Origin: a virus
DNA length: 51,408 bases
Virus record (IMG/VR): IMGVR_UViG_3300048586_000893
Coordinates: 1 to 51,408 of that record
Strand: one strand, 5' to 3'
A model generated the notes under the pieces. That model had not been told where the DNA came from. It ran no database searches and saw only the letters and a program-made list of their open reading frames with translations. How positions within the stretch are numbered: the first letter of the stretch is position 1; the number at the start of each line of letters is the position of its first letter. Shown one piece after another: positions 8,133 through 44,625 of the stretch. A program made the translations under genes and the position numbers.

Positions 8133-8263
8133 CGAACAATCAAATGGCAATGACGGGGCGAAGGCGGGATTAGCCGGGATCAGCCGGGATCAGCCGGAAA
8201 GTCGTTGCATTTCAAGGCTCTCGCCGGGGCGGGGCGGCCAACTTAGTGCCATTTGATTGTTCG
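8133..8263. repeat. perfect 17-bp inverted repeat near the left end
   Basis: CGAACAATCAAATGGCA occurs at 8133-8149 and its exact reverse complement TGCCATTTGATTGTTCG at 8247-8263, 97 bp apart. The first copy starts 7 bp from the inferred terminal TG. Mu ends carry several transposase-binding sites of mixed orientation, and these could be L1- and L2-type sites. A 131-bp miniature inverted-repeat element is the alternative, but no matching target duplication flanks the arms (TGAAA left, CAGGA right). Confidence 0.8.
8161..8200. repeat. 10-bp tandem repeat, four units
   Basis: Four consecutive 10-bp units read AAGGCGGGAT, TAGCCGGGAT, CAGCCGGGAT, CAGCCGGAAA. The period is close to one helical turn, so a protein bound to each unit would lie on one face of the DNA. 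It lies between the two arms of the 17-bp inverted repeat. A role as an accessory binding or bending site in the transposition complex is inference. Confidence 0.6.
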
Positions 8264-8353
8264 CAGGAAATGAACCGTTCTCGCCGCCTCGAAGCACTGC
8301 CTGAAACCGCCGCCTCCGCTAAGTCATTGAAAACCCGTCCGCGCGCCTCTCGG

Positions 8354-8469
8354 AAGTGGGACGATTTTCGCCAGGGTGCGGCCCCTGCATCCCACTTGGC
8401 TCAAACCGCTGAAAAATCGAGCCTTTCCGCCACTGCGGCCGCCACGGGCCATTTTTGGAAGTGGGATGC
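8354..8469. repeat. dispersed AAGTGGGATGC word, three copies
   Basis: AAGTGGGAC is at 8354-8362, GCATCCCACTT (inverted) at 8387-8397 and AAGTGGGATGC at 8459-8469. The last two are exact reverse complements over 11 bp. They lie inward of the 17-bp repeats and just downstream of the small minus-strand gene ending at 8481. They may be further transposase or repressor sites, or part of a terminator for that operon. Confidence 0.5.
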
Positions 8470-8480
8470 CAAATCGCCCC

Positions 8481-8606
8481 TCACCAAGGCCTCCAGCCGC
8501 GCAGGAACGACCAGATGAAGATCAGCCCCGCCAGCATGGCGAGTCCTGCGACGACGAGCCCGTAGCGGCTCGGCGGCGGGTCCGGATCGTCGTCGAGGTC
8601 GCGCAT
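8481..8606 (-). CDS. 41-residue single-pass membrane protein in a LexA-box operon
   Basis: The minus strand encodes a short acidic, Pro-rich N-terminus (DLDDDPDPPPSR), one hydrophobic segment of about 19 residues (YGLVVAGLAMLAGLIFIWSF) and a basic aromatic end (LRGWRPW). The predicted topology is a single inner-membrane helix. It starts 9 nt after the stop of the 118-residue gene and is probably co-transcribed with it from the promoter region holding a LexA box. Function is unknown. Small SOS-induced one-TM proteins that block division exist in alphaproteobacteria (Caulobacter SidA), but similarity beyond size and topology is not shown. Confidence 0.65.
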   Translation of the reverse strand: MRDLDDDPDPPPSRYGLVVAGLAMLAGLIFIWSFLRGWRPW

Positions 8607-8615
8607 CGCAGCACG

Positions 8616-8972
8616 CTACCGCGCCGCGTCGAATGCGTTCAAGCCAAACCGCGCGGCCTTCCCCCTTCGCGCCAGCTCGCGGGCGTCGGGCTGGTCGATC
8701 CGCAGATAGGCGGGATCCACAGGCAGGTCGACGCGCCGGCCGCCGCAGTCGGCAGCGAAGCCGTCAGCGGCGTCGCGGGTGCAGAAGCACCAGCGTACCA
8801 GCCGGTGGACGCCGTTCCGGCGATGCGTCGTCTCATAGTCATGCCGGGCGGCCAGGCGCTGCATGATCAGATGAGCGTTCCCCAGCCCCGTCTCCGGCAC
8901 GAGCATCTCAACTTGGACCGGATGCGTCCGGTCCCGCATCCGGTCCGTGACCTCGCCCTTTCGCCTGCCCAT
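8616..8972 (-). CDS. hypothetical protein, first gene of a LexA-box operon
   Basis: A 118-residue protein, basic at the N-terminus (MGRRKGEVTDRMRDR), with a central HRLVRWCFCTRDAADGFAADCGGRRVDLP region resembling a small alpha/beta domain of unknown role. The start is well supported by AGGAGG nine bases upstream on the minus strand. It is followed after 9 nt by the 41-residue membrane gene. The promoter side contains GTTC-N7-GTTC about 35 nt before the start codon, so DNA-damage induction is likely. I do not recognise a named family. Confidence 0.7.
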   Translation of the reverse strand: MGRRKGEVTDRMRDRTHPVQVEMLVPETGLGNAHLIMQRLAARHDYETTHRRNGVHRLVRWCFCTRDAADGFAADCGGRRVDLPVDPAYLRIDQPDARELARRGKAARFGLNAFDAAR

Positions 8973-13232: not shown

Positions 13233-15434
13233 ATGAAAATGTGGCTGACCCCCGCCGAGATCGCCGATCTGGCCCTGCCGGGCCTGCCGACGACCAAGCG
13301 CAACGTCAATCTGCTCGCCGAGCGAGAGGATTGGGCGCGCTTCGCCGGCCTGTCCCGGCCGCGGGCCGGGCGTGGCGGCGGCGTCGAGTATCATGTCAAT
13401 ATGCTGCCGGTCGCGGCTCGCGCTGCCTATTTCGGCGCCCATGCGCCGGTCGAGAGCGCCGCGACGGGCGCTGCGGAGACGATCCAGGCGGCGCCGGAGC
13501 CGGCCGAGGGCACGGGGCGAGCGGCGACGCTGCAACTGGATGCGCGGCTCGCCGTGCTCGGCGCCCTGAAGGCTTTCACCCGCTCGTCGTCACTGAAGCA
13601 GACGGTCGCCGTCGGCCATTTCGTCGACCTCTACAATCTCGGCCGCGTTGACGTGCCGGCCTGGGCGAGCCAGATCATCGGGCGCCTGTCGACCCGCACA
13701 CTCCTGCGCTGGCTCGCGGCGGCCCGTGAGGGCGAGACTGAGCGCTTGGCGGTCGACAAGGGCGCCGCGCGCCGCGGCCAGGGCGTGCTCGACGCCGCCT
13801 TCGACGGCGAGATCAAGCATTTCGCCCTCGCGGTCCATTCCTTCAACGAGCTCTACACGGCCCGGCAGATCTACGAGACGATCCGCGCCGAGTTCGGCGC
13901 GCGGCTGGCGGCCGAAGGTCTGGCGCTGCCGGTCCAGCGGGCGTTCGAGATGCGCTTCAAGGCCTGGAGGCAGGAGCACGCTGCCGGCCTCCTGCGGATG
14001 ATGGACCCCGACGGCTACCGTTCGAAGATGCGGACCTCGGGCTCCTGCGCTCATCTCGTGCCGCATCTCAACGCGCTCTGGCAGATCGATGCTTCGCCGG
14101 TGGACGCGCTCTGTGTCGACGGCCGGCATTCGATCTATGTCTGCATCGATATCTGGTCGCGCCGCATGTGCCTCTTCGTCTCGAAGACGCCGCGTTCCGA
14201 GGCCGTCCAGATGCTCATGCGCAAGGCGATCCTCGCCTGGGGCGTGCCCGATGCCGTGAAGACGGATAACGGCTCCGACTTCGTCGCCCGCGCCACGGTG
14301 CGCCTCTTCGCCAAGCTGCAGATCGAGGCCATCCGATCCCATGCCTTCTCGCCTTGGGAAAAGGGCGTGGTCGAGCGCAACATCCGCACCTTCCAGACCG
14401 ATTGCGCGCGCATGCTGCCCGGCTTCGTCGGCCACAGCGTCGCCCATCGCAAGAAGATCGAGGGGCGCAAGGCCTTCGCGGCCCGTCTCGGCCAGAGCGA
14501 CAGCGACGCCTTCAACGTCACCCTCACCGGCGAGGAACTGCAGGCGATCGTCGACCGCTGGTCGAGCGAGATCTTCGCCCAGCGCGCGCATGGCGGCATC
14601 GGCAATCTGACACCCTTCGCCCGCGCCGCATCCTCGACAAGGGCCATCCGCACCGTCGACGCCGATGCGCTGGCCACGCTGCTGATGCCGGCGCCCGATG
14701 CCGAGGGCCTTCGCACCGTCGGCAAGAACGGTGTTCGGATCGGGGGCTTCCACTATCTGGCGCCGGATTGCCTGCCGGGTGATCGCGTCTTCGTGCGGCT
14801 CGATCCGCATGACGCCGGCACGGTGTGGCTCTTCGACGAGACGGGCGACCGCTTCATCGGCCGTGCGCTCAATCCCGAGCGCGCCGGCGTCGACCCGGCC
14901 GAGCTGGTGGCACGCACCCGCGCCGCCCAAAAGGCGGCGATCGATGCGCAGACGGCGCAGATCACCCGGCAGGTCAGGAAGGGTGTCACGCAGCGCACCG
15001 TGCTGGAGGGCCGGCTCAAGGACGCCGCCGCGGCTGCGGGCAACCTGGTCGCCTTCCCGCCGCGCTCCGAGATCCACACGACGCCCGCGCTCGATGCCGG
15101 TCTGGAGATCGCGGCCCTGCGCCGGGGCGAGGCGCCTGCGGCCGCGCCGCTCACTCCAGAGGCGGCGAAGGTCCACGCGCAGCTGCTGGCCGAGATGGAG
15201 GATGCGCCGACCCCGGCGTCCGCGGCCCGCCGCCCCTCGAATGTCCGCCCGCTGCGCGATCACGAGACACCGCAGCAGCGCTACCGGCGCTGGCTCGATC
15301 TGCATGCCCGGCTGGAGGCCGGCGAGCCGATCTCTCCCGAACAGGCGGCCTTCTATGGCGGCTTCGCCAACAGCAGCGAGAAGCGCGGCCTGGACGGGCT
15401 CTACGAGGAATTTGGCGAGGCGGCGTTGCGTTAG
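13233..15434 (+). CDS. A: Mu A-like DDE transposase
   Basis: A 733-residue transposase, longer than Mu A (663). The N-terminal Mu-type HTH is at about residues 4-66 (WLTPAEIADLALPGLPTTKRNV...GGGVEYHVNMLP). The RNase-H-fold catalytic core (about 275-400) has Asp286 (WQIDASP), Asp345 (KTDNGSDF) and Glu381 (GVVERNIRTF). A beta-barrel-like region (GGFHYLAPDCLPGDRVFVRLDPHD) and a basic C-terminal tail follow, the latter expected to contact B. The start ATG at 13233 is chosen because the HTH begins right after it. It carries out replicative transposition and integration. Confidence 0.96.
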   Translation: MKMWLTPAEIADLALPGLPTTKRNVNLLAEREDWARFAGLSRPRAGRGGGVEYHVNMLPVAARAAYFGAHAPVESAATGAAETIQAAPEPAEGTGRAATLQLDARLAVLGALKAFTRSSSLKQTVAVGHFVDLYNLGRVDVPAWASQIIGRLSTRTLLRWLAAAREGETERLAVDKGAARRGQGVLDAAFDGEIKHFALAVHSFNELYTARQIYETIRAEFGARLAAEGLALPVQRAFEMRFKAWRQEHAAGLLRMMDPDGYRSKMRTSGSCAHLVPHLNALWQIDASPVDALCVDGRHSIYVCIDIWSRRMCLFVSKTPRSEAVQMLMRKAILAWGVPDAVKTDNGSDFVARATVRLFAKLQIEAIRSHAFSPWEKGVVERNIRTFQTDCARMLPGFVGHSVAHRKKIEGRKAFAARLGQSDSDAFNVTLTGEELQAIVDRWSSEIFAQRAHGGIGNLTPFARAASSTRAIRTVDADALATLLMPAPDAEGLRTVGKNGVRIGGFHYLAPDCLPGDRVFVRLDPHDAGTVWLFDETGDRFIGRALNPERAGVDPAELVARTRAAQKAAIDAQTAQITRQVRKGVTQRTVLEGRLKDAAAAAGNLVAFPPRSEIHTTPALDAGLEIAALRRGEAPAAAPLTPEAAKVHAQLLAEMEDAPTPASAARRPSNVRPLRDHETPQQRYRRWLDLHARLEAGEPISPEQAAFYGGFANSSEKRGLDGLYEEFGEAALR

Positions 15435-15441
15435 GCCGACC

Positions 15442-15467
15442 AAAAAAGAGCCCCGCCGAAGCGGGGC
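15442..15467 (-). terminator. intrinsic terminator read on the minus strand, between A and B
   Basis: GCCCCGC (15450-15456), CGAA loop and GCGGGGC (15461-15467) form a perfect 7-bp stem. Read on the minus strand it is followed by TCTTTTTT (complement of 15442-15449), a textbook intrinsic terminator. On the plus strand no T-run follows, so early transcription should pass. It may block antisense transcripts entering A. Confidence 0.75.
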
Positions 15468-15491
15468 CGATCAAGTCTTGACGAGGAACAG

Positions 15492-16265
15492 ATGAACGCA
15501 ATGACACCTGAAATCAAGAGTGACGGCTTCCAGCGCCCGGCTTCGCTCGCCCTGCTGAAGAACGTCGTCCACATGGTCGGGCTCGTGCAGCGCCTCAACG
15601 ATCGCGGCGCCCATATGCCAGGCTTCGGCGTTGTCCATGGCTATAGCGGCTACGGCAAGACCTATTCGGCCGTCTTCGCCCAGAACAAGACGGGCGGCCC
15701 GCGTATCGAGATCGGCGACAGCTGGACCAAGAAGACGCTGGTGCGCGCAATCCTCAAGGAACTCGGCGTGCGCGAGCCCAAAGGCACGGTCGCCGATCTG
15801 ACGGAACAGGCGATCATCCGCCTGGCCGAGCCCAACCACCCGCCGCTCTTCATCGACGAGGCCGACAAGCTCGTCGACAAGGGCATGATCGAGCTGGTGC
15901 GCGAGATCCAGGAGGGCGCGCAGATCCCGATCGTGCTGATCGGCGAAGAGCTGCTGCCGCAGAAGCTGATGAAGATCGAGCGCGTCCACAACCGCGTGCT
16001 CGACTGGGTCGCCGCACAGCCCTGCGACCTGGAGGACACCCGCAAGCTCGCGCAGATGTTCTGCCCGCATCTGGCGATCGACGATCCGACGCTGGAGGCG
16101 ATGCGCAACGCCTCCGAGGGGCGTGCCCGGCGCATCGTTACCAACCTCTACCGCGCCCGCGAATTCGCAGCGACGCGGGGCCTGAAGGCGCTCGAAGCCG
16201 GCGGCCTCGTCCCCGAATTCTTCACCGGCAACCCGCCGGCGCGCTCGTCCCGCAGGAGCGCGTGA
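15492..16265 (+). CDS. B: Mu B-like AAA+ target-selection ATPase
   Basis: A 257-residue AAA+ ATPase of the MuB/TniB group. Walker A is GYSGYGKT (residues 50-57) and Walker B is PLFIDEAD (D122, E123). LIGEELLPQKL resembles the sensor-I region, and a C-terminal helical lid (EAMRNASEGRARRIVTNLYRAREFA) follows. In Mu, B coats target DNA and activates A, directing insertion away from self. It follows A after 57 bp holding the hairpin, and AGGAACAG serves as RBS. It overlaps the next gene. Confidence 0.95.
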   Translation: MNAMTPEIKSDGFQRPASLALLKNVVHMVGLVQRLNDRGAHMPGFGVVHGYSGYGKTYSAVFAQNKTGGPRIEIGDSWTKKTLVRAILKELGVREPKGTVADLTEQAIIRLAEPNHPPLFIDEADKLVDKGMIELVREIQEGAQIPIVLIGEELLPQKLMKIERVHNRVLDWVAAQPCDLEDTRKLAQMFCPHLAIDDPTLEAMRNASEGRARRIVTNLYRAREFAATRGLKALEAGGLVPEFFTGNPPARSSRRSA

Positions 16266-18208: not shown

Positions 18209-18732
18209 GCGAGCGGCATGTCCCCTTCGATACGATCGTCCACGCCGTGGCCGCGGTGGGGGGCCGCTCACGCTTCGAGATCATGTCCGGCGACCGGGGC
18301 AACTCGGACCGGACGCGACTGCGCCATCTCGCCTGGTGGCTGGCCCGCAAGCTCACCCCGCTCTCGCTGGAGGCGATCGGCCAGGCTTCGCGCGGCCGCG
18401 ACCACACCACCGTCCTCAACGGCGTGCGCGCGATCGATACGCTGCGCGAGAAGAGCGAGATCTTCCGCCAGGAGAGCGACGCCCTGCTCGGCACCCTGAT
18501 CGCGCTGGAACGCCAAGGGATGCTGCAGCTCGCGACGATCGCCGATCCGTTGGCCACCGCCCGGCGCATTCTCGCGGCGCCAGAGCGGGAGGCCGTCCGC
18601 GTGCCCGTCATCGACATCGTCGCGATGGCGCGCCTGCTCGTCGAGACCTTCGGCGACGGCACCGAGCCGCCGCCTGACGACCCTTCCGAACCCGCCTCAG
18701 AACCCGTCCAGGAGACGCCTCATGCAGCCTGA
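18205..18732 (+). CDS. stand-alone DnaA domain IV (oriC-box-binding) protein
   Basis: A 175-residue protein whose residues about 30-100 match the C-terminal DNA-binding domain of DnaA: RTRLRHLAWWLARKLTPLSLEAIGQASRGRDHTTVLNGVRAIDTLREKSE, with the DHTTV signature at 66-70. The AAA+ part of DnaA is absent, so it can bind DnaA-box-like DNA but not form an initiator filament. It overlaps both neighbours in the early operon. Likely roles are recruiting or interfering with host replication, or regulating a DnaA-box promoter. The acidic Pro-rich tail is unremarkable. Confidence 0.88.
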   Translation: MSERHVPFDTIVHAVAAVGGRSRFEIMSGDRGNSDRTRLRHLAWWLARKLTPLSLEAIGQASRGRDHTTVLNGVRAIDTLREKSEIFRQESDALLGTLIALERQGMLQLATIADPLATARRILAAPEREAVRVPVIDIVAMARLLVETFGDGTEPPPDDPSEPASEPVQETPHAA

Positions 18733-19375
18733 CACCGCCACGCCCGCCATCCCCTCGGCCACCGTCGAGATCGACGGCAAGTCCTACATGCGCAATGCCA
18801 AGGGCGCCCTGATGCCGATCGAGCTGGTCAAGCCGGCCGACAAGCTGGAGGACGAGACGGTCCGCAAGGTGCTCGCCTTCGCGCTCTCGCTCTCGGCCCA
18901 GATCGCGCGCTTCAAGGCGCACACCTTCGCCGATCTCAACGCCTTCCAGTCCCTGCTGGAGCAGGAATACGGCGCCCGCGCCGGCGGCGAGAAGGGCAAC
19001 GTTACCTTCCAGAGCTATGACGGGCTCATGCAGGTCAAGGTGCAGATCGCCGACCTGATCGAATTCGGTCCGCAGCTCCAGGAAGCCAAGAAGCTGATCG
19101 ACGAGTGCCTGGTCGAGTGGGGTTCGGAAAGCCGCCCCGAGATCCGCGCGCTCGTGAACCGCGTCTTCAATGTCGAAAAGGCCGGCCAGATCAACAAGGC
19201 CGAGCTGTTCTCGCTCCTGCGCATGGACATCGAGGACGAGCGCTGGAAGCGCGGCATGGTCGCCATCCGCGACGCCATCCGCGTCACCGGCACCAAGGAG
19301 TATGTCCGCTTCTACAAGCGCGCCCGGCCGCAGGACCGCTTCGAGCCGGTCGTCATCGACCTCGCGGCCGCGTGA
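18722..19375 (+). CDS. DUF3164 early phage protein
   Basis: A 217-residue DUF3164 protein. VEIDGKSYMRNAKGALMPIELVKPADKLEDETVRKVLAFALSLSAQIARFKAHTFADLNAF is the family signature, with the C-terminal RMDIEDERWKRGMVAIRDAIRVTGTKEYVRFYKR helix block. DUF3164 is common in the early region of Mu-like phages; its biochemical role is not known to me. It overlaps the DnaA-like gene by 11 nt. Confidence 0.9.
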   Translation: MQPDTATPAIPSATVEIDGKSYMRNAKGALMPIELVKPADKLEDETVRKVLAFALSLSAQIARFKAHTFADLNAFQSLLEQEYGARAGGEKGNVTFQSYDGLMQVKVQIADLIEFGPQLQEAKKLIDECLVEWGSESRPEIRALVNRVFNVEKAGQINKAELFSLLRMDIEDERWKRGMVAIRDAIRVTGTKEYVRFYKRARPQDRFEPVVIDLAAA

Positions 19376-19382
19376 GGTCCAG

Positions 19383-20456
19383 ATGGCACGGTTGACCCAG
19401 CGCCCACTTTGCGTAGTGGCGGAATATGAGAAATCCGCCAAGGAAGCGGAGGCGCTATCCAATAGTGATGTAGGCAGGCTGCACTGCATCAGCGGCGCCC
19501 ATGCGCGATACGTCATCGCCAGCGAGGAGATCCCAGTTCACGCGTATGTCGATTCATCTGCTAACGGCGATTGTTTCGAATTCCTCGATTTGCGCCCAAA
19601 CGGCGTCGATTTCGGCCTTTGTTGCGTCGAAATAATCGAACCGCTCTTTCATGCGGTAATTCGCAGCCGCATCGCGCACCATAGTCGGCCAATCCCAAAA
19701 AGCTTTCTTTTCTGCGGGGGACAATCCCGGCAGCCGTGCTCTGCTTTCGAGCATGATATTTCGCATATAAGCCAAGGTGGAAGCCATCCACCAAATCTTG
19801 TGCCTAACAGCGTCACGCGCTTTGGACTGCACGCCCAGCACAGGACGGGAAGAATACTTATCAAATTTCGCTTTGACCGTTGCCACATGCATTTCGAAGC
19901 TAATAACTGCGTCGAAGCATTGCGCGATATCAGACTGCGGGCCCCTCGCCGCTCTCATCAGGGCATTGAAAATATCCTCCATTACGTGGTCAATTTCATC
20001 AACGATGCCGCGTTCTTCAACCAGTTCAGCCGCTTTCAACCTGAGATTCTGTGCCGCTGCCACAGCCGCTTGTCTATCCGCAGTTCGAAGCTGCTTTCCG
20101 ATGAAGCGAAGCGTTATCCCTGCAACGCCGGCGGTCAATACGCTTCCCAAGAGAGATTGGTAACGATTGAACCAAAATTCGAAACAACCGAAGACGATTT
20201 TATCAGGTGCTGCTTCTCTAAGTTTTGCAGCTCTGCACAGCGGCTCGCTGATGTCCAACGCGATACCCAGCGCTACGGCAAGGCCCATCGTAACAATAAA
20301 AAAGATTGTTGCACGATCGTCGCCTTTAGACATGTGGAATCTCCCCAAGAGCGAAGTGTAGCGGGGGAACTCAATCTTTGTAATGCCTCGAATGCGGGGC
20401 TTAGCGCACCGAGCCGTCGGGCCGGTCGCGCCAGCCTGTTTGGAGGTGACCGCTAA
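19383..20456 (+). other. open plus-strand frame spanning an antisense gene
   Basis: From an ATG with GAGGT upstream, a 357-codon plus-strand frame runs without a stop through the whole antisense gene 19554-20333 and ends TAATG on the next early gene. The first ~55 codons (MARLTQRPLCVVAEYEKSAKEAEALSN...) and the last ~35 lie outside the antisense gene and look like ends of a native early gene. The middle reads like non-protein (many Cys, His, Ser) and is codon-aligned antisense to the other gene. I treat it as an interrupted early cistron, not a confirmed protein. Confidence 0.35.
19554..20333 (-). CDS. antisense two-TM membrane protein (moron)
   Basis: A 259-residue protein with two N-terminal hydrophobic segments (about residues 9-27 and 58-76) and a long helical cytoplasmic-type domain rich in Ala, Arg and aromatic residues (WWMASTLAYMRN, FWDWPTMVRDAAANYRMKERFDYFDATKAEIDAVWAQIEEFE). 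The start at 20333 has GGGGAG upstream on the minus strand. GC content is lower than in flanking early genes. It lies antisense in the early operon, so it is probably expressed in the lysogen. No family recognised; a defence or exclusion function is possible. Confidence 0.75.
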   Translation of the reverse strand: MSKGDDRATIFFIVTMGLAVALGIALDISEPLCRAAKLREAAPDKIVFGCFEFWFNRYQSLLGSVLTAGVAGITLRFIGKQLRTADRQAAVAAAQNLRLKAAELVEERGIVDEIDHVMEDIFNALMRAARGPQSDIAQCFDAVISFEMHVATVKAKFDKYSSRPVLGVQSKARDAVRHKIWWMASTLAYMRNIMLESRARLPGLSPAEKKAFWDWPTMVRDAAANYRMKERFDYFDATKAEIDAVWAQIEEFETIAVSR

Positions 20457-20869
20457 TGGTCGCGTATTCCTTCAACAAGCGTTTTGCCGAGCCGATCGTT
20501 TGCGGCCATCCGACCACGGGCATCGTCAAGCGCCAGACCATCCGCGCGCCGCGCAAGCGCCACGCCCGGCCCGGCGAGCTGCTGCAGCTCTATCAGGGCA
20601 TGCGAACCAAAGACTGCCGGCGGATCATCGCTTACCAGGTCTGCACGGCCGTGCGGCCGGTGCGGCTCTGCATTGCCCGCGGCTATGTCCAAATGGTCGA
20701 CACCGGCGAGGCGTTCGGCACCGCTGCGTTCCTCGACAATTTCGCCAGCGCTGACGGCTTCCTGCATTGGGACGACATGCAGGCCTTCTGGAAGGCCGCC
20801 CATGAGCAGGCGGCCGACCCGGAGATGGCGTTTGAGGGCGTCATGATCAGCTGGGGGCCGCACTCATGA
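20456..20869 (+). CDS. ASCH-like early phage protein
   Basis: A 137-residue protein beginning MVAYSFNKRFAEPIVCG...KRQTIRAPRKRHARPGELLQLYQGMRTKDCRRI, the pattern of ASCH/PUA-like proteins found in many Mu-like and other phages. The KRQTIR and RPGE-L-LY elements are the characteristic ones. It probably binds RNA or modified nucleotides, but no activity is established here. GGAGGTGA upstream supports the start, which overlaps the upstream frame as TAATG. Confidence 0.82.
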   Translation: MVAYSFNKRFAEPIVCGHPTTGIVKRQTIRAPRKRHARPGELLQLYQGMRTKDCRRIIAYQVCTAVRPVRLCIARGYVQMVDTGEAFGTAAFLDNFASADGFLHWDDMQAFWKAAHEQAADPEMAFEGVMISWGPHS

Positions 20870-21252
20870 TCAGCGAAATCATCCCCTCGCGGCCACAGGC
20901 GCAGACAGACGTGCGCGCGCTAACGCTTTGCTTCCCACGCCATGATGCAAGCGCCCAAGCCGCACATGATTCCGCCCATCATCACGAAAGGGCCAAACGC
21001 CGTAACAGTTTGCAGCAGACTCTGCAGATGGTCGCTCGCCTGCAGGACTTGACCAACAGGGTCGCGGACGACTTCGGCCGGCTTGGCCGCATCGAGGTTA
21101 CGCCAGTAACCGATGGCGACCAGCACCACACCAACCAGAAAAACAACAAGGCCTACCATCTAAGCTACCCCATCTCGGGTTTCAGGAAGGCATCCTGTAC
21201 TCGAACCGCCAGCAAGGCACCAATCGCATCGCTAGTCGGGGGGATGGCATGA
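20866..21252 (+). other. open plus-strand frame spanning a small antisense gene
   Basis: The 128-codon frame starts in an ATGA overlap with the ASCH-like gene and ends in an ATGA overlap with the gene at 21249, just as a native cistron of this operon would. Codons after about residue 18 run antisense, in register, to the membrane gene 20920-21159. The native part is thus only MISEIIPSRPQAQTD and a short C-terminal stretch. It is an interrupted or residual early cistron. Confidence 0.35.
20920..21159 (-). CDS. small antisense two-TM protein
   Basis: A 79-residue protein with a strongly hydrophobic N-terminus (VGLVVFLVGVVLVAIGYW, residues 2-19), an amphipathic middle and a second hydrophobic helix (GPFVMMGGIMCGLGACIMAW, about 56-75). 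The RBS is weak (GGGG about ten bases before the ATG). The hydropathy pattern makes chance coding unlikely. Antisense to the early operon, like its larger neighbour. Function unknown. Confidence 0.6.
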   Translation of the reverse strand: MVGLVVFLVGVVLVAIGYWRNLDAAKPAEVVRDPVGQVLQASDHLQSLLQTVTAFGPFVMMGGIMCGLGACIMAWEAKR

Positions 21253-21569
21253 CCGCCCCCGTCATCCCGCTCCCGCTCCAGATCGACGCCGTCCGCTTTG
21301 CCGAGACGCGCCAGCGCTGCATGCTCGGCGGCAAGGCGATCAAGGAACTGCGTGGCGACCAGTTCGGCCAGCGCGACATGGAACGGCTCAACGCGGCCGC
21401 CCGCTCGCTGGAGAAGCTGCACGAGAACGCCGACGAGATCCGCGCCTTCCTGAAGCTACCGGCCGAGGCCCGCGAAGCCGTTTTGCGGCACAGCGAGACC
21501 ATGGCGCAGATGTGCCTGGAGCTGGCGAAGCGCGAGGCGATCGCCGCCGCCGGAGGGCCGGTGCGGTGA
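21249..21569 (+). CDS. early phage protein of unknown function
   Basis: A 106-residue helical protein (IDAVRFAETRQRCMLGGKAIKELRGDQFGQRDMERLNAAARSLEKLHENADEIRAFLKLPAEAREAVLRHSETMAQMCLELAKRE). The AARSLEKLHENADEIRAFLKLP region looks like a coiled-coil hairpin. The start is in an ATGA overlap with the upstream frame. No named domain recognised. Confidence 0.72.
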   Translation: MTAPVIPLPLQIDAVRFAETRQRCMLGGKAIKELRGDQFGQRDMERLNAAARSLEKLHENADEIRAFLKLPAEAREAVLRHSETMAQMCLELAKREAIAAAGGPVR

Positions 21570-22249
21570 ACTGCAGGTTCTCAGTATTTCTCGTGGTTCA
21601 CGAGAGACGCAATGTTGCGGGCCTCATTTGCCAGCGACCGAGCCGTGTTAAGCCCTGGAGACTGCAGAAGAGCCGGGAGGCGCATGAACTCCTGGGCCTG
21701 CCAGTGGCCCGCGTAGATGGCCTGCATCAGCAGGAAAAGGGCATCCAGAACCATATCAAAGATGCTTGCGTCGAGATGGGCGTTCTCGGCGGGCCTTTTT
21801 CGCTGCACGCCATGTACACCGCCGTTGCTGATAGCGACCGCAGTTCCCAAACGTGGCAGCGCGAGTGCTTCTCCATGAGCAATCGCGTTGCGGAAAGCGA
21901 TGACGTCTCCGGCCGCCGCCAAAAAATTCTCGACCGCTCGCTGGAACTCCGGATGCGCGGCGATAGCCGCCCGTCGAAACTCCTCAAGCAGGCGGGATAT
22001 GGGCCATCCATCTGTCCTAGGGCGGGACCCGACTTCGGGCCAGCCATCCATCTGCCAGAAGACTTTTTCCAGTTCGGTCTCGAACTGTGCGCAACCCAAC
22101 ATGAGCACCCCTATCCGCTCCAGGGTGGGCGGCGAAAAGCCCCGGTTCACGTAGACCTGACGCAGAGCGTCCTTAGAGGGGCGGTCGCCGGGCTTGCTCA
22201 TGACCCGCACGGTACCATCGCAACCCTGCATTTTGCGAGGGCGGCATGA
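21566..22249 (+). other. open plus-strand frame spanning the antisense HEPN-like gene
   Basis: A 227-codon plus-strand frame begins at a GTGA overlap with the preceding gene and ends in an ATGA overlap with the methyltransferase at 22246. Nearly all of it is antisense to, and codon-aligned with, the HEPN-like gene 21581-22201. The predicted peptide does not look like a folded protein. It may simply keep ribosomes moving along the early mRNA, or be chance; I do not claim a product. Confidence 0.3.
21581..22201 (-). CDS. antisense HEPN-like protein (RNxxAH motif)
   Basis: A 206-residue helical protein. FETELEKVFWQMDGWP and GDVIAFRNAIAHGEAL form the core; R104 to H109 is an Rx4H motif as in HEPN ribonuclease domains, where it is the catalytic pair. 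The surrounding RN-IAHG context is seen in several HEPN-like families linked to abortive infection. The fold assignment is from motif and helicity only. It lies alone and antisense in the early operon with GC lower than its neighbours. No partner antitoxin is adjacent, so it could equally be a non-toxic HEPN relative. Confidence 0.68.
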   Translation of the reverse strand: MSKPGDRPSKDALRQVYVNRGFSPPTLERIGVLMLGCAQFETELEKVFWQMDGWPEVGSRPRTDGWPISRLLEEFRRAAIAAHPEFQRAVENFLAAAGDVIAFRNAIAHGEALALPRLGTAVAISNGGVHGVQRKRPAENAHLDASIFDMVLDALFLLMQAIYAGHWQAQEFMRLPALLQSPGLNTARSLANEARNIASLVNHEKY

Positions 22250-22920
22250 GCCAGCCCAGCTTCGCCTTCTCCTCGGCCGTCGCCGCGCAGCGCTCGGAGC
22301 CGCACGACTCGCTCGACTTCTTCCCGACGCCGCCCTGGGCGACGCGGGCCTTCGTCCAGCATGTCGCGCTGCCGGTGCTCGGCGTCCAGACCGACGACAT
22401 CGTCCTGGAGCCGGCCTGCGGCGAAGGCCACATGGCCGAACCGCTGCGCGAGGCCTTCCCGGCGACGCTGGCGAGCGACATCCACCCTTACGGCTATGGC
22501 GAGGTCTGGGACTTTCTCGAAGCCGGCCCAAACCGGGGCGCCTGCGATTGGGGCTTCACGAACCCGCCCTTCAACCGCGCCGTCGAATTCGCGCGCATGG
22601 CGCTGTCGCTCGCCCGGCGTGGCGTCGGCCTGCTGGTCCGGACGCAGTGGCTGCATTCGGGCGAGCGCGACGATCTCTTCCGTACCTATCCGCCCTTCGT
22701 CATCGCCTATTACGTCGAGCGGGTGCCGATGCACCGCGGCGAGTGGAAGCCGAAAGGCTCCACCGCCACCGACTATTGCTGGGTCTGCTGGAAGCGAGGC
22801 GCCGAGCCGCGCCCGCCGCTCTGGATCCCGCCCGGACAGCGCAAGGCGTTGACCCGGCCGGATGATGCCGCTCGCTTTGCCAAGCCCGTCGCCGCCCCGC
22901 TGTTCGAGGCAGGAGCGTGA
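22246..22920 (+). CDS. phage DNA adenine methyltransferase-like protein (NPPF)
   Basis: A 224-residue SAM-dependent methyltransferase. Motif I is LEPACGEGHMAEPL (about residues 54-66), the acidic second motif is SDIHPYGYG and the catalytic motif IV is TNPPFNRAVEFA (NPPF 106-109), typical of N6-adenine or related amino-MTases. It has no obvious target-recognition domain, so it is compact. It probably protects phage DNA from restriction or alters host regulation. The start is in an ATGA overlap with the upstream frame. Confidence 0.85.
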   Translation: MSQPSFAFSSAVAAQRSEPHDSLDFFPTPPWATRAFVQHVALPVLGVQTDDIVLEPACGEGHMAEPLREAFPATLASDIHPYGYGEVWDFLEAGPNRGACDWGFTNPPFNRAVEFARMALSLARRGVGLLVRTQWLHSGERDDLFRTYPPFVIAYYVERVPMHRGEWKPKGSTATDYCWVCWKRGAEPRPPLWIPPGQRKALTRPDDAARFAKPVAAPLFEAGA

Positions 22921-43335: not shown

Positions 43336-43901
43336 TGGACATCAAGGAGATGGTCCACGCCTTCCGCGGCATCGTCAGCCGCGCCGTCGTGCGCTCGACC
43401 AATGACGGCGGCGAAACCCAGACCGCCAGCGTGACCACCCACCGCCATGTCGACCGCACGGATGTCGAGGTCGCGCAGCCCTTCGGCTTCACCTCGCGGG
43501 CGCCGGGCGGCGGATTGATGATCGTCTTCGCGATCGGCGGCGACCAGGGCGACCTGGCGGGCCTGCCGGTCGCCGCGCCGGGCTCTAGGCTGGGCAACCT
43601 CGCCGAGGGCGAGAGCGCCATGCACAACGCCAAGGCCGACCGCGTCCACATCAAGGCCGACGGGACGATCGAGATCCTGACCCGCCGCAAGGTGGTGGTG
43701 AAGGTGAAGGAGGCGACGGTGACCGTCGAGGAGGACCGGATTGTCTCGAAGATCGGCACAGGCGTCGGAGCGCCGCGGCATGTGGTGCGGCCGGACTACG
43801 TCAAAATGCGCAAGGGCGACAACTGGGTTGTGGTCCAAGAGGCGGGTGTCGTCGTCTCGGTGGCGCCGGTGGTGGGGCCGGATCCGGAGCCCGCAGTTTA
43901 A
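43335..43901 (+). CDS. baseplate spike protein (Mu gp45-like)
   Basis: A 188-residue gp45/gpV-type spike. An OB-fold N-terminal domain (IVSRAVVRSTNDGGETQTASVTTHRHVDRTDVEVAQPFGFTSRAPGGGLMIVFAIGGDQGD) leads to a beta-helical C-terminus (DRVHIKADGTIEILTRRKVVVKVKEATVTVEEDRI). It pierces the outer membrane. Start is ATG 43335, overlapping P. Its 3' end overlaps an antisense gene by 4 bp. Confidence 0.92.
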   Translation: MDIKEMVHAFRGIVSRAVVRSTNDGGETQTASVTTHRHVDRTDVEVAQPFGFTSRAPGGGLMIVFAIGGDQGDLAGLPVAAPGSRLGNLAEGESAMHNAKADRVHIKADGTIEILTRRKVVVKVKEATVTVEEDRIVSKIGTGVGAPRHVVRPDYVKMRKGDNWVVVQEAGVVVSVAPVVGPDPEPAV

Positions 43902-44521
43902 GCTACCGTTTCGGCATCCAATGACTTCTCGCCGCTGTCGGGATCTGGTTCGCTCTTTATGGCTCCGTGATAGGCGATGGCCAGGAAGCTGATTACTCCG
44001 GAGACGATGCTGAATCGCAGAAAACCATGGTCAGCACGGTACATTTCGACCAGCCTGGGCTCTTCAAATTTCTCAACCCAACTGACTTTTTTGAGCAGCG
44101 ATGTCCGGTCCTTTCGCGCCTGAATCACTTCTATCAATGGCATCCCGACCTGAACGATATCATGGGCAAAGCCGTTTCTTAGCTGTCGGACGGAGTCGAT
44201 AAGGTCTCTGAAATTGTTTGGACAGCCGGCAGCGTCCAAGAGCGACAGTAACGATGTGCGACCGCGCATAGGCAGCGTGTCTATGAACGCTTCAACTTTA
44301 TCCTGATCCATGCGCGGGCCGCCGACCAAATTGGCCTTCACGACCACTCTGGCGGCCGCTTCCAGCAGCGCGTCGATCTTCAAGATAAATTCCCAGTCCG
44401 AGGGCGCCCGGTAGATATCGATAATTGTTGTGTCCGGGATGCCTATCAATGCCGTTATCTTTTTGGACTCCGCCAATCTCTCTTCGAAACTCGCCGCAGC
44501 AGTTGGCTTTTCCGTTTCCAT
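43898..44521 (-). CDS. antisense HEPN-like protein with C-terminal TM segment
   Basis: A 207-residue protein. DWEFILKIDALLEAAARVVVKANLVGG and IDSVRQLRNGFAHDIVQ form a helical core in which R115 to H120 is again an RNxxAH (Rx4H) motif. A hydrophobic segment at about residues 167-185 (FLRFSIVSGVISFLAIAYHG) could anchor it in the membrane. AGGGAG lies just before the ATG on the minus strand. GC is lower than in the late genes around it. It is antisense between gp45 and gp46. A HEPN-like RNA-targeting or regulatory role is inferred. Confidence 0.68.
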   Translation of the reverse strand: METEKPTAAASFEERLAESKKITALIGIPDTTIIDIYRAPSDWEFILKIDALLEAAARVVVKANLVGGPRMDQDKVEAFIDTLPMRGRTSLLSLLDAAGCPNNFRDLIDSVRQLRNGFAHDIVQVGMPLIEVIQARKDRTSLLKKVSWVEKFEEPRLVEMYRADHGFLRFSIVSGVISFLAIAYHGAIKSEPDPDSGEKSLDAETVA

Positions 44522-44605: not shown

Positions 44606-44625
44606 AGGCCCCGACCTCGGGGCCT
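44606..44625 (+). terminator. hairpin AGGCCCCG-N4-CGGGGCCT, copy 3
   Basis: A perfect 8-bp stem with loop ACCT, followed by GTTCCGCC, stands 34 bp before gp46 and right beside the promoter side of the antisense gene. It is the same element as at 24134 and 31657. A GCGCG-N7-CGCGC-like dyad follows just before the gp46 start. Confidence 0.68.

Follow-up and report, generated by a model that had tools for sequence, protein, structure and literature searches.

Stop-free, coupled frames opposite antisense genes in the early operon of a Mu-like prophage: probable bridges for ribosome passage

The window analysed here (the whole 51,408-nucleotide stretch of DNA, an IMG/VR virus record) contains a Mu-like prophage, whose near relative is the Bosea prophage L054 (DUF3164 94% identical; DNA identity 82–87% across long stretches). 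Its Mu-type transposase, homologous to those of RS1/RC1 and D3112-type phages, is followed by DUF3164 and an early block, with the gene order as in RS1, StopSmel and Aussie; judging by position, GemA/Mor-like genes are probably present in the early region. The plus strand carries the early operon, which past DUF3164 is interrupted by three minus-strand genes, each flanked by plus genes. Genes were called with a simple in-house finder, whose output was compared visually with a single annotated phage.

The upstream early gene, encoding DUF3164 (18722–19375, plus strand; Pfam PF11363, E 2e-73), is followed by antisense gene 1 (19554–20333, minus), which encodes a 259-aa membrane protein, as supported by homologues and by substitutions at minus third positions. 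Opposite lies a stop-free plus frame, bridging frame A (19383–20456), which starts at ATG 19383, 8 nt past the DUF3164 stop, and ends as TAATG (20454–20458) with the next early gene, a phrog_8581-like gene (20456–20869, plus) kept in L001 and L054. Antisense gene 2 (20920–21159, minus), encoding a small membrane protein of 79 aa, is crossed by bridging frame B (20866–21252, plus), with an ATGA overlap both at its start (ATG 20866) and at its end (21249–21252). After a further early gene (21249–21569, plus) that is kept in L001, L002 and L003 comes antisense gene 3 (21581–22201, minus), whose 206-aa product has homologues on plasmids and chromosomes. It lies within bridging frame C (21566–22249, plus), which begins at GTG 21566 in a GTGA overlap, is open further upstream of that codon, and ends in an ATGA overlap (22246–22249) with the downstream coupled gene, for a phage DNA methyltransferase (22246–22920, plus; phrog_799, E 1.5e-54). 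From the tight same-strand packing and the coupled junctions, the flanking genes would be co-transcribed across the antisense genes. No promoter-like site for the minus genes emerged from a sigma-70 scan, and a scan for terminator-like hairpins found 4 sites against 3.0 expected, one of them a weak minus-strand hairpin inside frame A, 3' of antisense gene 1 (19434–19450).

The earlier note had described the three antisense genes as aligned codon on codon with stop-free plus frames. Its coordinates and junctions are correct, and the register is borne out, the open frames extending over 19158–20456, 20836–21252 and 21236–22249. None of the 50 Leu and 25 Ser codons that the three genes contain together is TTA, CTA or TCA. 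The remaining two antisense frames carry 4 and 16 stops in gene 1, 2–3 each in gene 2, and 4 and 9 in gene 3. Codon-on-codon register is the cheapest one to keep open, because stops there arise only opposite TTA, CTA and TCA, all of which can be replaced synonymously; the cost of openness would be limited to the choice among synonymous Leu and Ser codons. The protein-preserving shuffle proposed in the earlier note is useless in its plain within-gene form, because the three codons are absent from the genes, and it was replaced by the A-ending codon usage within each gene and by context-matched homologues. With the protein fixed and its own A-ending usage, the probability of openness by chance is 6e-6 for gene 1, 0.26 for gene 2 and 3e-3 for gene 3. 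Gene 2 is uninformative by itself, and the decisive evidence is comparative. Elsewhere in the window, past the tail genes, a further antisense gene (43898–44521, minus) has 3 TTA/CTA/TCA codons and a closed opposite frame; a hairpin near 44606 may mark the end of the operon there, and the gene serves as an internal contrast.

Related prophages point to how the cassettes arrived. At site B, L054 and L001 are empty, and the stop of the gene corresponding to 20456–20869 overlaps the start of that corresponding to 21249–21569 as ATGA; in the window, an ATGA stands at each end of the insert. Site A holds four plus genes in L054 and three in L001, and the last of them (L054 10000–10206, L001 7034–7240) ends in DSLFGGAG or DSLFGGER before the stop. 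Frame A ends similarly, in ASLFGGDR before its stop, so that its tail (SLFGGDR and stop, 20427–20456, plus) is the 3' remnant of a plus gene that the cassette displaced and that is intact in L054 and L001. Site C has plus genes in L002, L003 and L054, and in L001 it has an unrelated minus gene (8147–8713), again in register with an open frame that runs from ATGA to ATGA.

An initial look at low-GC3 genes across loci indicated that those free of TTA/CTA/TCA mostly lay backward between opposite-strand genes. Since this list was chosen by outcome, an unbiased, homology-based set was gathered instead, consisting of homologues of antisense gene 1 and of the related post-DUF3164 family of Mu-like prophages (alignment A1; n = 67). 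Copies with opposite-strand genes within 150 nt on both sides were classed as tightly nested (32 of the 67). Thirty of these 32 have no TTA, CTA or TCA, and the class total is 3 against ~284 expected from each gene's own A-ending usage. Among the copies in same-strand or contig-edge positions, a small comparison set of seven, none is free of the three codons (2–16 each), and the total is 62 against ~90, the expectation overshooting by ~30% in same-strand copies. The contrast between the two classes is significant (Fisher p = 2e-6). Copies in mixed or loose contexts fall between these two classes; tandem antisense pairs, which belong to the mixed class, are mostly open. By codon, the tightly nested copies use TTA or CTA for 2 of 854 Leu and TCA for 1 of 432 Ser; other fourfold-degenerate A-ending codons are used at 20% in these copies and at 24% outside. 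Stop densities in the three antisense frames are 0, 0.029 and 0.050 for open genes and 0.033, 0.037 and 0.046 for closed ones. The exceptions are L142 (1 codon) and L151 (2) among the tightly nested copies, L051 1184–1555 (1) and the window gene past the tail genes. As judged from these codon counts, selection for openness in nested genes is well supported. Apparent stops in L105, L106 and L182 arise only from a start placed too far upstream, and several nested ORFs were excluded as shadows of GC-rich plus genes (first-position GC >0.8). A filter that required a large gap in strand score was discarded, as most real nested genes were lost with it.

The bridges are also coupled at their ends. 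A start codon lies between −7 and +12 nt from the upstream stop in 37 of the 41 bridges that could be tested among the 47 open members, compared with 16% for the remaining two frames. All 37 are ATG or GTG; 21 lie exactly at −3, and 32 have an SD-like motif. The bridge stop falls within an ATGA-type junction in 46 of 47. Other arrangements include a single 754-codon bridge over two unrelated antisense genes, one of them DUF6161-like (L117 8109–10103), and two bridges joined at an ATGA junction in Sinorhizobium phage Aussie (L076).

The phenomenon is far more general than the earlier note supposed. Antisense gene 1 is a diverged member of a family of helical proteins with two TM helices, for which the structure model gives two TM helices and a helical bundle (pLDDT 87); a search with this model returned generic helical-bundle matches only and no function, and neither antisense gene 1 nor its relatives could be placed convincingly in a family with Pfam, PHROG or PADLOC. 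Scans of viral contigs with antisense genes 1 and 3 found zero relatives; copies on chromosomes occur within the early replication operons that other prophages carry, where their neighbours are primase/helicase, CII-like and methyltransferase genes. Antisense gene 3 represents a second family, in which the nested window copy has 0 TTA/CTA/TCA and relatives elsewhere have 1–11. A zinc-ribbon family, unrelated and located in the late operons of Pseudomonas phages, has the same architecture, with 0 such codons in copies across Pseudomonadaceae (three copies score 1 only when an earlier start than the annotated one is used) and 2–3 in copies elsewhere. Further unrelated families replicate the pattern at site C of L001 and in L026 and L024.

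Several further loci are of note in their own right. In the Pseudomonas phages LPB1 (L182 2968–3474) and Forsyth (L183 2959–3480), one late-operon stretch is annotated on opposite strands. Rhodovulum phage RS1 has an annotated minus gene (L075 15407–15877) in register within a plus ORF (15383–15961) that overlaps both neighbours. The post-DUF3164 family occurs in L007, L012, L014, L019–L022, L027, L042, L058 and L076; it is a 2-TM helical bundle with the motif YDFQTLITG...QMRxTD...RH, lies backward at one Rhizobiales Mu-like prophage site, and could possibly be an exclusion gene. Antisense pentapeptide-repeat proteins were seen in prophages at L035 11890–12597 and L067 13890–15083, where the opposite frame is open too.

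Which strand carries the gene can be judged from substitutions. Counted by minus codon position, these number 54, 56 and 123 between L029 and L042, and 37, 32 and 69 between window gene 1 and L103, and thus cluster at minus third positions. The identity of the plus peptides is close to that obtained when the minus synonymous sites are randomised (0.175 observed and 0.181 expected, 0.172 and 0.173, 0.201 and 0.193), apart from a slight excess for L029/L042 (0.315 vs 0.253); the L021/L027 pair is too close for this comparison to tell. Most pairs accordingly gave no sign of purifying selection acting on both proteins, and a comparison of the plus frames with known families gave no clear match. 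On these substitution patterns, the minus strand evolves as a protein, and the plus peptide drifts as if unconstrained, its strand being bound only to openness. The start and stop overlaps and SD-like sequences of the plus frames are hallmarks of operon genes and might suggest functional proteins on both strands, as in true antisense overlapping genes, but the plus identity in most pairs, which is that expected with randomised synonymous sites, the lack of a clear plus-frame family and the minus third-position bias make this improbable. It is harder still to believe that the plus frames are the real genes and the minus ORFs their shadows, even though the plus frames are tightly coupled to their neighbours and the Forsyth annotators picked that strand: the minus proteins have homologues in distant genomes and other contexts, including ones with no coupled plus frame, and the third-position bias and the good structure model both belong to the minus strand.

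The openness itself could have other causes. High-GC codon bias or rare-codon avoidance, the former raised as an alternative in the earlier note, can open antisense frames by chance, and in these genomes ~60% of genes with GC3 >0.85 are open in this way. However, GC3 of the nested genes is mostly 0.47–0.70, same-family genes outside operons use TTA, CTA and TCA at 9–16% each, and ATA, GTA, AGA and the rest of the A-ending codons occur at normal frequency. The avoidance is specific to frame and context; this alternative fails, and we regard it as exceedingly unlikely. Nor is openness likely to be an accident of cassette insertion into plus genes, persisting with no maintenance. The final codons of the displaced plus gene are indeed still in frame at site A, but third positions have diverged widely (123/220 in L029/L042) and stops are absent nonetheless, which leaves this account very improbable. 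Another possibility, itself a version of the explanation preferred here, is that the bridge serves termination–reinitiation at the ATGA that follows it and that Rho polarity is of no importance. Exact overlaps of 4 or 1 nt between the bridge stop and the called downstream start (31 of 42) speak for it; however, ATGA is the ancestral style of the operon, as in L054, and its retention therefore cannot separate the two causes. We consider this version possible but rather doubtful.

When a proteobacterial operon contains a backward gene, its mRNA has a long untranslated stretch there, in which Rho-dependent termination and uncoupling are expected. We propose that each minus gene is a cassette sitting backward within the lytic early operon of the Mu-like prophage, and that the cassette's operon strand is maintained without stops from the stop of the upstream gene into the start of the downstream gene. 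Ribosomes trailing RNA polymerase would then traverse the antisense gene and pass on to the one that follows, avoiding Rho-dependent polarity, lost translational coupling or both, and the bridge peptide would not be under selection. That a translatable bridge is maintained by selection so that ribosomes can cross the antisense gene, sparing the operon polarity or loss of coupling, is on the comparative evidence highly probable. Ribosome passage as the purpose is supported in that it fits starts and stops that are coupled, an avoidance confined to one frame and a plus peptide free of constraint. The bridges are presumably translated, with polarity or coupling as the presumed cause, and the minus genes would be used, and their expression timed, in lysogeny. 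More broadly, it seems reasonably likely that backward genes in lytic operons of proteobacterial temperate phages are generally selected for a coupled, stop-free frame on the operon strand, whatever its product.

Such a constraint, in which the codons of one gene are set by ribosome passage on the other strand, had no match in our literature search for stop-free antisense frames under selection in operons, which covered few subscription papers and preprints. It suggests that DNA can be selected for ribosome passage and not for a useful second protein. If true, this would define a class of ORFs selected for being translated and not for the protein made. The signature, absence of TTA/CTA/TCA together with a coupled antisense frame, locates antisense accessory genes in phage operons; many of these encode uncharacterised small membrane proteins and may be exclusion or defence genes. 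Conflicting annotations would be explained as well, and a long "hypothetical protein" with perfect coupling may be a bridge. These loci also offer a natural test for the extent to which translation protects phage transcripts from polarity.

Among known systems, the nearest likeness is to noncontiguous operons, in which an antisense gene is nested in one operon, as in the three window cases and the 32 tight relatives. For the S. aureus menE-menC-MW1733-ytkD operon (Saenz-Lahoya 2019), a review (PMC7154746) describes an opposite-strand gene between operon genes and treats the mRNA stretch opposite it as an internal untranslated region, whereas in the window that stretch is open and is coupled to the gene on either side. 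In the Tha/Ith noncontiguous operon of S. aureus prophages, oppositely transcribed genes switch between lysogenic and lytic states, and a bridging frame, as seen in the window, is not described (PMC11087260). In S. aureus phage 80alpha, gp19, an antisense gene of the replication region, contains 32 TTA/CTA/TCA codons, and each of its antisense frames is interrupted by stops; noncontiguous operons thus do not follow the rule in general. The Pseudomonas transposable phage Fc02, also Mu-like, likewise has lysogenic and lytic genes on opposite strands (olg1/gene 10), but exclusion activity is reported for both of its overlapping ORFs (PMC9936078), whereas the window plus peptide appears unconstrained. 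Prophage morons and lysogenic conversion genes are, like the window cassettes, foreign, AT-richer and interchangeable; unlike morons, the window cassettes sit inside a lytic operon, with both their orientation and their register constrained.
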